Assembly (NCBI GenBank): GCA_021848085.1
Contig: JAJZNB010000085.1
Coordinates: forward strand, 1 to 35,384
From: Actinomycetes bacterium
GTDB taxonomy: Bacteria; Actinomycetota; Acidimicrobiia; Acidimicrobiales; UBA8190
DNA length: 35,384 bases
Direction: 5' to 3'
The notes below the pieces were generated by a model. It was not told the DNA's origin and ran no database searches. It worked only from the letters and a program-made list of their open reading frames with translations. The translations under genes and the position numbers were made by a program. Position 1 is the stretch's first letter; every line of letters begins with the position of its first letter. Shown here one piece after another: positions 6,350 through 12,249 of this stretch.

Positions 6350-8020
6350 TCAGAGCCGCGGGTGGTGGACGGCTTCGGCGGCGGCTGCCTCGCCAGCCAG
6401 GAAGCCGAAGGTGACGGCGGGACCGATGGTGCCGCCGGGGCCGTAGTAGGCCTGGCCCGTCGGCGCCGCCGCGCAGTTGCCGGCGGCGAACAGCCGGGGG
6501 ATGGGCGAGCCGTGGACGTCGACGACCCGACCGGTGGGATCGATGACCGGACCGCCTTTGGTGTCGAGGGCGCCGGGCCCGAGGATGATGCAGTGGCAGG
6601 GCCCGTCGGTGTCCAAGGGGCGCATGGTGGGGTTGGGCAGCCCCGGACGAGGCGGTCCGGCCCAGGCCCGCTCGAGCAGGGAGCCGCCGCGGCCGAAGTC
6701 CCGGTCGGTCCCCTCCACCGCCATGGTGTTGAAGCGGGCCACGGTGCCGGCCAGGGTGGGGGTGAAGGTCGGCCCGAGCCGGACGCTGCCGATGGCGGCG
6801 CCCATCTGGGCGAGCCGGGCGTCGATGACGGCGGCCAGCCCGGCCAGGTCCGGTGCCGACAGCATGTTCTGGTGGCCCTCGTCGGGCCCGGGCACCGGCC
6901 AGCGAGGGCGGGTGGTGGGCCGGTCGTCGTGCAGCACGGCGTCGTCGAAGATCATGAACAGCAAGAAGTTGGGGTACTCCAGGCGGCTGGGGTCCCAGAC
7001 GTGGTGGATCTGACCGCGGTCGTTGTAGGCCATCTTCTCGTTCATGACCCGCTCACCGAACCGGTTGACCATCACCATGGAGTCGCCGAACGGGTAGACG
7101 CAGTCGTGGGGTGTCCGCCGGTCCCGCAGCGCCAGCTCCACCACCACCTGGCTCCACCAGGCGTGGGCCATGGCGCCGAGGGCGGCGCCAGCCCGGATGC
7201 CGATGCGGACGAAGTCGCCGCGGGCGCTCGCCGCGGCCGCTCCGCCCAGCACCGGACCCCGCAGAAAGGCCGAGACCAGCTGCTCGTCGTGGAGGAAGCC
7301 GCCGGTGGCGAAGACCACGGCCCGCCGGGCGCCGGTGAGGACGGTGGCCGTGCCCCGGTGGGCCTCGACCCCGACGATGACCCCGTCGCCGTCGCGCACG
7401 AGGTCGACGACACGGGTCTCGCTGCGGACGCGCACCGACAGGGCCGCGGCGGCACCCAGCATGGCGTCGACCAGCACCTGGCCTCCGGTCGGGCCCTCGC
7501 CGGGGCGGGAGCCGTCGGGCATGCGGATCTTGACGGCCCGCCCCACCGGCATCTCGTCCTCGGGGAACGGTGCGTAGTAGTCGGGATAGTCCGGGTCCAC
7601 GGCGTCGTCGTAGGGGATGGCGCCCAGAGCGGCCAGCTCGGTGAAGGCGCGGGGCCCGTGGTCGACGAAGGCCTCGAGGAGGGCCAGATCGTCGGGGCGC
7701 AGGCCCCACCCCGGTGCGTCGGGGGCGAAGCGGGTGGGATGGGCGCCACGGGCCAGGAAGCGAAGCGCCCGCTGGCGGTCGTCCACCAGGCCGGCGGCCG
7801 CCATCACCGGGTTGCCCGGGATCCACATGACCCCGCTCGACTTCGCCGTGGTCCCACCGGGGTGGTTGGCGGCATCGAGGACGGTGACCGACGCCCCGCC
7901 TCGGGCGGCGGCCAGGGCGGCGGACAGGCCGGCGGCGCCCGTCCCCACCACGACGACGTCGGCCACGTCGTCCCACTCGCGACCCCAGGGATCAGGCGGT
8001 GTGTCGGGTTCGTCGGACAC
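6350..8020 (-). CDS. FAD-dependent oxidoreductase, 3-ketosteroid-delta-1-dehydrogenase-like (FAD_binding_2 family)
   Basis: GTG start after AAGGAGCACC RBS; VVVVGTGAAGLSAALAAARGGASVTVLDAANHPGGTTAKSSG and C-terminal AYYGPGGTIGPAVTFGFLAGEAAA, typical of KstD-like enzymes. Confidence 0.82.
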   Translation of the reverse strand: MSDEPDTPPDPWGREWDDVADVVVVGTGAAGLSAALAAARGGASVTVLDAANHPGGTTAKSSGVMWIPGNPVMAAAGLVDDRQRALRFLARGAHPTRFAPDAPGWGLRPDDLALLEAFVDHGPRAFTELAALGAIPYDDAVDPDYPDYYAPFPEDEMPVGRAVKIRMPDGSRPGEGPTGGQVLVDAMLGAAAALSVRVRSETRVVDLVRDGDGVIVGVEAHRGTATVLTGARRAVVFATGGFLHDEQLVSAFLRGPVLGGAAAASARGDFVRIGIRAGAALGAMAHAWWSQVVVELALRDRRTPHDCVYPFGDSMVMVNRFGERVMNEKMAYNDRGQIHHVWDPSRLEYPNFLLFMIFDDAVLHDDRPTTRPRWPVPGPDEGHQNMLSAPDLAGLAAVIDARLAQMGAAIGSVRLGPTFTPTLAGTVARFNTMAVEGTDRDFGRGGSLLERAWAGPPRPGLPNPTMRPLDTDGPCHCIILGPGALDTKGGPVIDPTGRVVDVHGSPIPRLFAAGNCAAAPTGQAYYGPGGTIGPAVTFGFLAGEAAAAEAVHHPRL

Positions 8021-8159
8021 GGTGCTCCTTCGTAGGTTGGGCGGCGGTCGAGGCCGCGTCGTTCGAGGTCTGGTGGTCGAGCTGGCGGTGGCGGAAGGCG
8101 GGTCTCGGCGGCGGGCGGGCGACGACGCCGGGGCGGGCCACAGGGGCGCCGGATGGCCG

Positions 8160-8573
8160 TCAGGCGGGCAGCAGCACCCGGGCCTGGCCGGCCATGACCG
8201 TGTCGTCACCGCGCCGCAGCCACACGTCGCAGGTGGCCAGCGTCCCGCCCCGGTCGGGCTCGACGGCGGTGACCGTCCCGCCGGCCACCAGCCGGTCCCC
8301 GGCGAACACGTTGGCCAAGAAGCGCACCCGCAGCCTCCGCAGGTGCTGGTGCCCGCCGGCCCAGGCGGCCAGCATGTTGGCCACGTAGGCCATGTTGTTC
8401 GGCCCCTGGTTGACGGGCCGGTCGCCCATGCCCAGCCTCCGCACGGCGGCCACCTCCCAGTGGATGGGGTTGGGATCGGCCAGCAGGGCGGCCATGGTCT
8501 TCATCTTCTCGGCATCGACCGCCTCCACCACCCACTCGGGCAGGGCGTCACCCACCGACGCCGGGCCGCTCAC
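8160..8573 (-). CDS. MaoC-like (hot-dog fold) dehydratase, second subunit/half
   Basis: DPNPIHWEVAAVRRLGMGDRPVNQGPNNMAYVANMLAAWAG...LRRLRVRFLANVFAGDRLVAGGTV; overlaps the upstream hot-dog gene. Confidence 0.8.
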   Translation of the reverse strand: MSGPASVGDALPEWVVEAVDAEKMKTMAALLADPNPIHWEVAAVRRLGMGDRPVNQGPNNMAYVANMLAAWAGGHQHLRRLRVRFLANVFAGDRLVAGGTVTAVEPDRGGTLATCDVWLRRGDDTVMAGQARVLLPA

Positions 8574-9010
8574 AACCCTCTCCGGGGGAACACGAACGAG
8601 TTGGTCGACACCGCCGCCACCTCGCCGTGGGCGTCGACCAGCTCGAGCTCGAAGGCCACGATGTCGAACACGCCGGTGCGCTGGCCCTGCTTGCGCTCGG
8701 CGCTGGTGATGCCGCCGCGCACCTCGAAGGGCTCACCGACCCGAAGCGGTCGGCGCAGGTCGATCTCGGCCTCGCCGAACATCACCCCGTCCTCGGCGGT
8801 GGCGCCGGCCAGGGCGAACAGCTCGTCGAGGGAGATGCCCATGCCGGCCAAGGCCCCGTAGTAGCAGAACATGGGGTGGGCGACCTCGTCCCCGGGGGGC
8901 GGGGAGAGCACCGCGTCGCAGGTGAGCCAGTTGCGGTATGGCTCCACCCGGTAGGTCCCCCCGGGGAAGCGGTGCCCGACGATGGCCTGCAGATCGGCCA
9001 GCGACGTCAT
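8570..9010 (-). CDS. MaoC N-terminal / FAS1-like hot-dog dehydratase domain protein
   Basis: MTSLADLQAIVGHRFPGGTYRVEPYRNWLTCDAVLSPPPGDEVAHPMFCYYGALAGMGISLDELFALAG...; longer start at 9070 possible but it would overlap the operator-like palindrome. Confidence 0.72.
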   Translation of the reverse strand: MTSLADLQAIVGHRFPGGTYRVEPYRNWLTCDAVLSPPPGDEVAHPMFCYYGALAGMGISLDELFALAGATAEDGVMFGEAEIDLRRPLRVGEPFEVRGGITSAERKQGQRTGVFDIVAFELELVDAHGEVAAVSTNSFVFPRRGL

Positions 9011-9067
9011 GGTTGTCACGCCTGTGGTCACCTCCCGCTCGCCGGGCACCGCCGGCGACACGGTGAC

Positions 9068-9085
9068 CAACCTACCGATTGGTTG
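9068..9085. promoter_or_regulatory. TetR-type operator-like imperfect palindrome (site 1): CAACCTACCGATTGGTTG, followed by AAGTT
   Basis: Arms CAACC/GGTTG in an AT-rich island between divergent genes; CTACCGATTGGTTGAAGTT matches site 3 (CAAACGACTGGTAGAAGTT) at 15 of 19 positions. Confidence 0.6.
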
Positions 9086-9134: not shown

Positions 9135-9219
9135 GTAGGTTTTGGGTGCCGGGTCGGGCCGCACCTCGCCCTGCCGGCGCGACGGAGCCGCCGGCCGGTC
9201 CGGCAGGGGAGGGGACGCC

Positions 9220-10314
9220 ATGGCGACGACGATGGAGATCGAGGAAGCCGACGTTCAAGAGGTGTTCTTCGCCGAGGGGCTCACCGACGGCCTACCCGTG
9301 GTCCCTCCCACCCCCGAGCGGGTGGAGGCCATGCTGGTCGCCGGCGGGGTGGGCGCCGACGAGATGCTCGGCACCATCACAGCTCGCAACCGCTCCGTCA
9401 CCGCCGAGCAGGCCGCTGTCAACGCGGTCATGGCCGGCTGCGCCCCCGCCTCCTTCCCGGTGGTGCTGGCCGCCCTGTCGGCCATGCTCGACCCGGCCTT
9501 CAACGCCAATGCCGTGCTCACCAGCACCGGCGGCGCCGCCTTGTGCCTGGTGGTGAGCGGCCCGCTGGCATCGGCCATCGGGCTCAACGCCGGTCACGGC
9601 GCCCTCGGCTCGGGGCATCGGGCCAACGCCACCATCGGCCGCGCCTTGCGGCTGGTGGCCATCAACGTCCTCGACGCCCGCCCCGGCGGCATGGACGGGT
9701 CGTCGCTGGGCAACCCCGGCAAGTACTCGCTGTGCTTCGCCGAGTCGTCGCCCCCGGCCCCGTGGGAGCCGTGGCGGGTGGCCCTCGGCTACGACGCGGC
9801 CGACACCACCGTCACCATCATGGGCACCGAGGGGCCGCGCCAGGTCGCCAACCTGCTCAACGGCGACGGCCACGGCGTGCTGCGCACCTACGCGGCGGCC
9901 ATGCGCAACCCCTCCACCTTCTGCGTCGGCAAGGGCGGCCAGGGGATCGTGGTGGTCGGCCCCGAGCACGCCGCCGCCCTGGTCGAGGCCGGCATCAGCC
10001 GGGCCGAGGTGCAGGCCTACCTCGCCGAGGCCAGCCGGGTGCGCCCCGAGGAGCTCGAGGAGGCCGGGGTCCTGCTGGAGCAGGGCTCCCAGCACGACAT
10101 GGCGCCGGGACCAGACGGCAAGCTCCCCACCGTGGGCGAGCCCGACGACGTCGTCGTCGTCACCGCTGGCGGTGGCGGCGCCGGCTGGTCGGCCTACCTG
10201 CCCGCCTTCGCCCCCACCATCCACACCCGCAGCGTCACCCGCCGGGTCCGCCTCCCCGGCGAGGCGCTTCCCGATTGCGGACCCGACAGCTGCACCGTCG
10301 ACCTCAGCCGCTGA
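9220..10314 (+). CDS. Conserved protein of unknown function, genomic partner of the UGSC-family protein
   Basis: Start MATTMEIEEADVQEVFFAEGLTDGLPVVPPTPERVEAML; good RBS (AGGGGAGGGG); C-terminal Cys motif DCGPDSCTVDLSR. No catalytic family recognised with confidence. Confidence 0.75.
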   Translation: MATTMEIEEADVQEVFFAEGLTDGLPVVPPTPERVEAMLVAGGVGADEMLGTITARNRSVTAEQAAVNAVMAGCAPASFPVVLAALSAMLDPAFNANAVLTSTGGAALCLVVSGPLASAIGLNAGHGALGSGHRANATIGRALRLVAINVLDARPGGMDGSSLGNPGKYSLCFAESSPPAPWEPWRVALGYDAADTTVTIMGTEGPRQVANLLNGDGHGVLRTYAAAMRNPSTFCVGKGGQGIVVVGPEHAAALVEAGISRAEVQAYLAEASRVRPEELEEAGVLLEQGSQHDMAPGPDGKLPTVGEPDDVVVVTAGGGGAGWSAYLPAFAPTIHTRSVTRRVRLPGEALPDCGPDSCTVDLSR

Positions 10315-10333
10315 GCCCGCCCGAGGCCCGCCC

Positions 10334-10373
10334 GCCCCGAGCACCTCGCCCCGAGCACCTCGCCCCGAGCACC
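10334..10373. repeat. 14-bp tandem repeat (GCCCCGAGCACCTC), about 2.9 copies
   Basis: Units start at 10334, 10348 and 10362, in the intergenic gap before the UGSC-family gene. Confidence 0.8.
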
Positions 10374-10481
10374 ACCCGCCCGCCGGCGACACCCCGGCAC
10401 CGCCGCCGGGCACCGAACCAGCCCCCGGACACCCAACCAGCACCCGACACCGAGCTGACGCCCGGACATCGAGGAGGAGCC

Positions 10482-11054
10482 ATGGCTTCCATCACCGTCT
10501 TGCGACCCGACGTCCACCAGGAGGCCGCCGACGCCTTCCCACCGGCGCCGCCGCCCACCCCCGACCGGCCGCTGGTGCTCACCCTGATCGACAACGGCAA
10601 GCCCAAGGCCCGCGAGCTGCTCACGGCCATCGCCGGCGAGCTGGGCGCGCTGGTTCCGCTGGCGTCGGTGGAGGTGGTGCGCAAGGAGGCGGCCGCCAGG
10701 CTGCTGTCGGAAGACGACGCCCGCGCCATCGCCGCCCGCTCCGACATCGTCATCGCCGGGCTGGGCGACTGCGGCGCCTGCTCGGCCTGCTCGGTGGACG
10801 ACGCCGTGGAGATGCAGCGCCGTGGGGTGCCGGCGGTGGTGGTCATCTCCGACGTGTTCCAGGGGCTGGCCGCCTCCTTCGCCGCCTCGCGTGGTCTGGC
10901 CGCCTGTCCCACCGCCGTGGTGCCCCACCCGGTGTCGTCCAAGAGCGACGCCCACATCGCCGAGCTGGCCCGTCGGGTCGTCGGCACCGTCCACCAGCAG
11001 CTGCTCGGCCGGCCCGCGCCGGTCGCCGTCCCGGTCGGCGCGGCGGCCCGCTGA
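10482..11054 (+). CDS. UGSC-family protein, cysteine-containing (non-selenocysteine) form
   Basis: GAGGAGGAGC RBS; TLIDNGKPKARELL... and signature IAGLGDCGACSACSVDDAVEMQRRGVPAVVV; the Sec position of the UGSC motif is a TGC Cys codon here. Confidence 0.75.
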   Translation: MASITVLRPDVHQEAADAFPPAPPPTPDRPLVLTLIDNGKPKARELLTAIAGELGALVPLASVEVVRKEAAARLLSEDDARAIAARSDIVIAGLGDCGACSACSVDDAVEMQRRGVPAVVVISDVFQGLAASFAASRGLAACPTAVVPHPVSSKSDAHIAELARRVVGTVHQQLLGRPAPVAVPVGAAAR

Positions 11055-11085: not shown

Positions 11086-12249
11086 GTGGACTTCGCGCTC
11101 AGCGACGAACAGGTCGCCCTGGCCGACACCTTGCGGCTCTGGGTGGACAAGCACTGCCCCAAGGACGTGGCCCGCCACCTCGAACGCCAGGAGCTGGCCT
11201 TCCCGTACGAGCTGTGGGACCAGATGGCCGACGCCGGGCTGCACGGCATCGGCATCGACGAGCGCTACGGCGGCCAGGGCGGCGACGTCACCACCCAGAC
11301 GGTGGTGGCGCGCGCCCTGGCCCGCTCGCTGGCCGGGTTGACCTGGATCTGGGGCATCTCGTCGTTCGCCGGGGGGAAGTCGGTCGGCCTGTACGGCACC
11401 GAGGAGCAGAAGCAGCGCTTCCTGCCCGAGCTGGCCGCCGGCCGGCTGCGCTTCGCCATCGCCGTCACCGAACCCGCCGGCGGCACCGACGTGCTCGGGG
11501 CCATGACCACCCGGGCGCGCCAGGTTCCCGGCGGCTGGCGGATCACGGGAGCCAAGACCTGGTCGACGTGCGCCAACGTGTCGGACTACTTGCTGCTGCT
11601 GGCCCGCAGCCAGCCCGACCCGGCCCGCAAGACCGACGGGCTCACCTTGTTCCTGGTGCCCCAGCCCAGCGAGGGCTTGGAGACCCGACCCATCCACAAG
11701 CTCGGCATGCGCTGCATCCCGAGCTGCGAGGTCTTCCTCGACGACGTGTTCGTCCCTGACGATCTGGTGCTGGGCCCACCCGGGCAGGCGTGGCGGATGC
11801 TGACCGGCACCTTGAACAACGAGCGCATCGTGCTGGCCTCTTTGTGCTGCGGCATCCTCGACGGGGTGCTCGAGTCGGCCGTGGAGCACGTGGCCCAGCG
11901 CCGGGCCTTCGGCCGGCCCGTCGGCGAATTCCAGGCCGTGCAGCACTTCCTGGCCGACATCGCCATGTGGCAGGCGCAGGCCGAGCTGGTCACCATGCGG
12001 GCCGCCTGGCTCCAGAGCCAGGGACGCCCGTGTGCCACCGAGGCCAACATGGCCAAGCTGCTGGCGTCGGAGTACGCCGTGGCCGCCGCCGACCTCGGCA
12101 TCCAGATGCTTGGCGGCATGGGCTACTCGGCCGACACCGACATGCAGCGCTACTGGCGCGACGCCCGCATCTACCGCATCGCCCCCATCTCCAACGAGAT
12201 GGTGCGCAACGTCGTGGCCGAGTCGCTCGGCCTGGGCCGCTCGTTCTGA
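11086..12249 (+). CDS. Acyl-CoA dehydrogenase family protein (paralogue 1)
   Basis: GTG start; AVTEPAGGTDVLGAMTTRARQVPGGWRITGAKTWSTCANVSDYLLLLAR, LGIQMLGGMGYSADTDMQRYWRDARIYRIAPISNEM. Confidence 0.92.
   Translation: MDFALSDEQVALADTLRLWVDKHCPKDVARHLERQELAFPYELWDQMADAGLHGIGIDERYGGQGGDVTTQTVVARALARSLAGLTWIWGISSFAGGKSVGLYGTEEQKQRFLPELAAGRLRFAIAVTEPAGGTDVLGAMTTRARQVPGGWRITGAKTWSTCANVSDYLLLLARSQPDPARKTDGLTLFLVPQPSEGLETRPIHKLGMRCIPSCEVFLDDVFVPDDLVLGPPGQAWRMLTGTLNNERIVLASLCCGILDGVLESAVEHVAQRRAFGRPVGEFQAVQHFLADIAMWQAQAELVTMRAAWLQSQGRPCATEANMAKLLASEYAVAAADLGIQMLGGMGYSADTDMQRYWRDARIYRIAPISNEMVRNVVAESLGLGRSF

Follow-up and report, generated by a model that had tools for sequence, protein, structure and literature searches.

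A Cys-form UGSC protein, remote homologue of the GrdB/PrdB selenocysteine domain, and its linked partner as a putative thioredoxin-dependent reductase

In glycine and proline reductases, bonds between selenocysteine (Sec) and carbon are made and broken, and glycine reductase uses the dithiol of thioredoxin (PMC10298544). FarB/FarE, a GrdB-type pair of Cloacibacillus, is a proposed fluoroacetate reductase to which cleavage of the C-F bond has been assigned (PMC10838667); as a substrate-specific pair for which Sec-mediated cleavage of a carbon-heteroatom bond has been proposed, it shows the substrate diversification of this family. The "UGSC-containing protein" is known from the GOS selenoproteome paper of 2008, which also mentioned a "UGSC/Unknown_1" fusion and in which the protein was guessed to be thioredoxin-like and redox active (PMC2398784). 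We came across no study of UGSC function in our searches of the literature.

The window analyzed here, a contig of 35,384 nucleotides from an actinomycete (GenBank assembly GCA_021848085.1), carries a UGSC-family gene in its Cys form, preceded by a gene that we refer to as the partner. In our reading, which we hold to be probable, the two encode a two-subunit thioredoxin-dependent reductase, with UGSC supplying the catalytic Sec or Cys and the partner binding an organic substrate. The relevant features are as follows.

9206 to 9214, + strand: GGGGAGGGG, purine-rich and Shine-Dalgarno-like, 5' of the partner gene (read from the sequence)
9220 to 10314, + strand: partner gene, ATG at 9220, stop at 10314, 364 amino acids; putative substrate-binding subunit
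9439 to 9441, + strand: partner Cys74 codon (AGCxP), kept in at least 90% of 60 relatives
9733 to 9735, + strand: partner Cys172 codon (CxAE), kept in at least 90% of 60 relatives, with the invariant Glu175 nearby
10471 to 10479, + strand: GAGGAGGAG, purine-rich and Shine-Dalgarno-like, 5' of the UGSC gene (read from the sequence)
10482 to 11054, + strand: UGSC-family gene, Cys form, ATG at 10482, stop at 11054, 190 amino acids; putative catalytic subunit
10770 to 10772, + strand: UGSC codon 97, TGC (Cys); TGA (Sec) in 75 of 81 relatives; aligns with the Sec of GrdB
10779 to 10781, + strand: UGSC codon 100, TGC (Cys); Cys in 81 of 81 relatives; putative resolving Cys
10788 to 10790, + strand: UGSC codon 103, TGC (Cys), third Cys of CxxCxxC; in relatives W 28, C 27, G 15, S 6, A 5
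11086 to 12249, + strand: acyl-CoA dehydrogenase gene, 31 bp downstream of the UGSC gene

Both genes of the pair lie on the same strand, separated by 167 bp, and the coordinates, lengths and two sequence motifs given in a preliminary description of this DNA were all present exactly as described, including TGC as the codon for the first Cys of the UGSC motif. Three direct repeats of CGCCCCGAGCACCT, spaced by 14 nucleotides, are located between the two genes (10333 to 10380), and no consensus promoter or terminator was found between positions 8900 and 11200. The acyl-CoA dehydrogenase gene is probably cotranscribed with the UGSC gene and is a neighbor outside the conserved pair.

The short protein matches the Pfam UGSC family (PF24696) over nearly its full length (150 bits, E = 9.5e-44, residues 6 to 175 of 190; gathering score, 25 bits), with which it shares the C/U-G-x-C motif and the near-invariant Asn38/Lys40 and His149-Pro150. 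Since its score against the NCBIfam equivalog NF041046 (118.8 bits) stays under the cut-off of 125 bits, we consider it a divergent UGSC member, at the level of Pfam and not of the NCBIfam equivalog. Its motif reads CGACSAC, so that the literal U-G-S-C with Sec is departed from twice (Cys for Sec, Ala for Ser), while the broader pattern, G-x-C after either Sec or Cys (UxxC), is present as CGAC. The UGSC-family layout put forward in the preliminary description was thereby borne out by the HMM search with Pfam, but neither in the form of a literal CGSC nor at the NF041046 cut-off. In an AlphaFold2 model (pLDDT 94.6; as for the partner, plasmid-derived rows were left out of the input alignment), the protein adopts a flavodoxin-like alpha/beta fold, with Cys97 sitting between strand 89-95 and helix 98-113.

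Position 97 is occupied by Sec in 75 and by Cys in 6 of the 81 aligned GTDB relatives, and the CxxC/UxxC motif is kept in all 81, as well as in divergent plasmid forms. On the partner tree, the Cys form of the window belongs to a supported clade with seven rows, of which five are Sec forms; because it nests inside a Sec clade, Cys most likely replaced Sec here. At least three to four Sec/Cys switches occur on the tree. Loss of the Sec machinery was rejected as the cause, since the genome contains SelA (335.9 bits) and a tRNA-Sec candidate (66.4 bits) on the same contig, C36. The tRNA-Sec search was loose, every genome yielding matches, and we therefore trust only those above the gathering score of 47. 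Additionally, a tRNA-Sec gene is situated about 0.5 kb from a UGSC-partner pair in two genomes (G031:C39:3897-3988 and G091:C3:94142-94233), an arrangement that perhaps represents a mobile selenium cassette.

The strongest mechanistic clue is the distant homology of UGSC to GrdB and PrdB, a relationship that the preliminary description did not contain. Against TIGR01917 (GrdB) and TIGR01918, the UGSC protein of the window scores 19 bits (E = 5e-4) and 16.7 bits, respectively, below the curated cut-offs of 602 and 65, and Pfam GRDB (PF07355; cut-off, 22) gives no match to it. Among 49 UGSC members, 21 match TIGR01917 (best E value, 6e-6), 9 match PrdB (TIGR04483), 8 sarcosine GrdF, 7 TIGR01918 and 3 betaine GrdH, whereas families outside the GrdB/PrdB group are matched by at most 4. 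A profile comparison with hhalign aligned UGSC to a GrdB/PrdB-like profile with a probability of 94.1 (E = 1.3e-7), placing Cys97 on the Sec of GrdB, compared with at most 1.1 for 19 unrelated neighbor families and at most 0.1 for six column-shuffled controls. The homologous stretch spans about 60 to 90 columns and includes a strand, the U-x-x-C at the start of a helix, the E..GIP strand and the HP motif, with the catalytic residue aligned. By sequence comparison, then, UGSC is remotely homologous to the GrdB/PrdB Sec domain without belonging to that family.

The likeness is confined to the Sec domain; UGSC has no counterpart of the N-terminal part of GrdB, and a pyruvoyl subunit of the GrdE/PrdA type (PF09338) was not found in the genome of the window, which is about 89% complete. 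In sequence the partner shows no such relationship, and its candidacy as a homologue of the GrdB N-terminal part or of GrdE/PrdA was rejected (hhalign probability < 0.5). Since the partner resembles neither, the substrate activation chemistry of those enzymes (pyruvoyl in GrdE/PrdA) is not transferable to the pair. Likewise, FarB/FarE consists of GrdB and GrdE homologues in an anaerobe, whereas the window pair combines only a recognizable Sec domain with a new partner. Hosts of UGSC relatives, such as haloarchaea and Mycobacterium, live with oxygen.

Genes of the GrdB/PrdB group themselves also occur in the class to which the window belongs. Short stand-alone PrdB-like proteins that match only the C-terminal part of Pfam GRDB are present in about one-quarter of the class genomes (L072 to L098), and at two UGSC loci (L124, 13063 to 13770; L132, 16687 to 17409) a PrdB-like short protein is encoded a few kilobases downstream of the pair. 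Complete GrdB, with the STUGT motif, and GrdE-like genes were found in a few class genomes (L069 to L071 and L099 to L102), and the two adjoin in G018, G022 and G082.

The link between UGSC and the partner was surveyed in 247 genomes of the class. Both genes are present in 86, UGSC alone in 3, the partner alone in 2 and neither in 156 (Fisher p = 3.7e-60), and their copy numbers correlate across the 247 genomes (r = 0.98), with up to eight pairs per genome; the co-occurrence that the preliminary description suggested surveying was found, and the partner is not conserved without UGSC in most genomes. At 80 GTDB-species loci, counting only partner genes that are not at a contig edge, 78 of 83 have a UGSC gene within 700 bp on the same strand, with the partner first in 52 cases and UGSC first in 26. 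Among the five exceptions, UGSC lies further off in two (829 bp in L172 and 5.2 kb in L140) and was not found in the fetched locus in three (L131, L142 and L164). Pairs are common in bacteria and haloarchaea, and among 17 plasmid loci selected through the partner, 16 have UGSC adjoining or fused. Single-polypeptide fusions of the two, with UGSC ahead of the partner, occur in Variovorax boronicumulans, Sporomusa termitida and Vibrio europaeus, the first with an intact CGAC motif and a UGSC match of 2.4e-21. In two haloarchaeal plasmids (L062, 7983 to 10645; L202, 2453 to 5152), two partner paralogues flank one Cys-form UGSC, an order that suggests a possible heteromeric partner.

The partner, to which the preliminary description assigned no function, belongs to no named family: Pfam and NCBIfam gave no convincing match for it or for any of 59 diverse relatives, and sequence comparison with the PDB revealed no related chain. 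Its invariant or near-invariant residues include Asp23, Pro26, Cys74, Arg141, Cys172 and Glu175. The C-terminal DCGPDSC, singled out earlier as a Cys feature, did not hold up as a conserved metal or redox motif, being private to the window protein and absent in relatives; the conserved cysteines are Cys74 and Cys172. Sec in the partner was likewise discarded, as the TGA codons in some matches are true stop codons near the C terminus. With Foldseek, its AlphaFold2 model (pLDDT 93.5) best matched class I fumarase and Toblerone-fold cyclic amide hydrolases, at E values of 4e-4 to 3e-3 over long stretches. With TM scores of 0.17 to 0.32 for the best PDB folds (all < 0.35, against a threshold of > 0.5), root mean square deviations of 12 to 17 Å and no sequence similarity, no relationship of the partner to either enzyme is demonstrated. 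A fold search against viral structures produced no match.

These fold matches, weak as they are, bear on a different reading of the pair, namely, a non-redox lyase, isomerase or hydratase whose two domains bind and rearrange a catabolic intermediate, with Sec or Cys acting as nucleophile or as acid/base. One UGSC protein also weakly matches class I fumarase models (0.0019), and in the fused proteins of Sporomusa (L064, 7317 to 9041) and Vibrio (L065, 7359 to 9044), DMGTS replaces the Sec/Cys motif while the whole partner is retained, with genes for aconitase X and DUF126 adjoining and, in Vibrio, an enolase-like gene also nearby. This Cys-less branch beside aconitase X shows that the two domains can serve without Sec or Cys, and it is the main caution on the redox cycle proposed below. 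Still, we consider a non-redox enzyme unlikely, given the preservation of CxxC/UxxC in all 81 aligned GTDB relatives and in the divergent plasmid forms, the poor superposition of the partner on its fold matches, and the thioredoxin-like fusions and trxB linkage, which point to redox turnover.

The evidence for thioredoxin as the reductant of the proposed two-subunit enzyme comes from the relatives. In 20 of 150 distinct partner proteins, all from the class of the window, an N-terminal domain carries KRDCPTC (or close variants), followed later by TVPTL; a pattern match in L170 was spurious and is not among the 20. This domain aligned with thioredoxin in hhalign (probability of 58.9, with a small profile), CPTC falling on CGPC and the cis-Pro region being in place, and weakly matches TraF (2.4e-4) and thioredoxin (0.0034). 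In Arthrobacter, the genes stand in the row trxB-trxA-partner-UGSC, and trxB-like (thioredoxin-reductase) genes, which flank eight pairs, account for 8 of 580 genes within 2.5 kb of a pair and for 0 of 951 further away (p = 4e-4), counts that are not fully independent because the loci are related. Most loci of relatives have no nearby trx gene, none was recognized in the window, and the partner of the window itself has no thioredoxin domain.

The same features (UxxC motif, thioredoxin-like domain and trxB linkage), together with the earlier guess of a thioredoxin-like redox protein (PMC2398784), would also fit a thiol redox or detoxification protein, peroxidase-like or a disulfide reductase, that protects the enzymes of the operon, with the partner as a scaffold. 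We find this improbable. The flavodoxin-like UGSC model does not support a thioredoxin fold, its 50 best PDB matches including no thioredoxin structure, and the placement in catabolic operons that also encode transporters, CoA ligases and CoA transferases, along with up to eight pairs per genome, suits diversified substrate specificity better than a general protective role.

A NifU-like CxxC domain (PF01106, 27.2 bits; cut-off, 27) is fused to UGSC in Arthrobacter, and either this fusion or similar motif-bearing open reading frames or extensions near the pair occur at L063 (9051 to 9866), L058, L190 (10704 to 10985), L193, L198, L002, L123 and L177; the domain is a possible third component. 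That the Cys pair of UGSC carries sulfur, selenium or an iron-sulfur cluster with such a helper strikes us as very unlikely nonetheless, as only a minority of loci have the NifU-like part, which the window lacks, and as cofactor assembly does not fit the catabolic operon context. Finally, two linked but independent catabolic proteins sharing no enzyme, as the three fetched loci without UGSC might indicate, are highly improbable, since the two genes occur at nearly one-to-one copy number in 86 genomes, adjoin whichever comes first, and are naturally fused in some relatives, in one case with CGAC intact.

The surroundings of the pair offer some indication of the substrate. Besides what we read from the sequence as a branched-chain-type ABC transporter, the window encodes acyl-CoA dehydrogenases, several acyl-CoA ligases, a thiolase, two SnoaL-like proteins, SDRs, luciferase-like oxidoreductases and a CoA transferase of two subunits. 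The regions at 6350 to 9070 and 11086 to 31808 hold an FAD_binding_2 oxidoreductase gene and a MaoC-like gene on the minus strand, along with SnoaL-like, CMD, ApbA, luciferase-like, thiolase and CoA-transferase genes; together they have the look of a cluster for the catabolism of a cyclic or branched acid, possibly a steroid- or terpenoid-like one. For the pair in the window, the substrate is probably formed within a CoA-linked catabolic route, as one of its intermediates. With the window, a close relative (L186) has in common the adjacent ligase (60%) and a thiolase (72%), and L104 shares the CoA-transferase subunits (46 to 49%). Across relatives, neighbors are diverse (SDR, tricarboxylate-transporter binding proteins, CoA-transferases, LLM oxidoreductases and others), with no universal third gene beside the pair and the commonest neighbor cluster (SDR) in only 16 of 80 loci, so that a single conserved pathway for all pairs was rejected. 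Such variation would be expected of one type of enzyme that has adapted to a range of substrates. Where the preliminary description saw a two-component redox or thiol enzyme embedded in acyl-CoA metabolism, the two-gene unit, the fusions and a thiol/selenol redox role linked to thioredoxin have gained support, but the acyl-CoA setting is local to the window; its interpretation is partly supported.

The computed basis for a two-subunit thioredoxin-dependent reductase, then, consists of the remote homology with its catalytic-residue register, the invariance of Cys100, gene linkage, fusions, the thioredoxin-like domain on 20 partners and the trxB linkage; from these we infer the physical complex, the reductive direction, the type of bond and the substrate. 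Modeled on glycine and proline reductase chemistry as described in a review (PMC10298544), the cycle might run as follows. The partner, with its invariant Asp23, Arg141 and Glu175 and its conserved Cys74 and Cys172, would hold the organic substrate, and the Cys97 thiolate (a selenolate in Sec relatives) would attack an activated carbon-heteroatom bond of it. Cys100 would then resolve the adduct, yielding the reduced product and a Cys97-Cys100 bond (Se-S in Sec relatives), and the thiols would be restored by thioredoxin, fed by thioredoxin reductase and NADPH. Because the Cys forms can be expressed without Sec machinery, this biochemistry is straightforward to test.

Our analysis thus supplies UGSC with an evolutionary origin (the Sec domain of GrdB/PrdB), a partner family that is unnamed in Pfam and NCBIfam, a likely electron donor and testable chemistry. 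More tentatively, UGSC and its partner may be a widespread, largely aerobic counterpart of the glycine and proline reductases, that is, a diversified, thioredoxin-powered family of two-subunit selenol/thiol reductases in which each partner directs cleavage to a carbon-heteroatom bond in its own catabolic intermediate and of which the window holds a Cys-for-Sec version. If this is true, selenol-driven reductive bond cleavage, known from anaerobic amino acid fermentation, would also operate across numerous catabolic operons in bacteria and haloarchaea.
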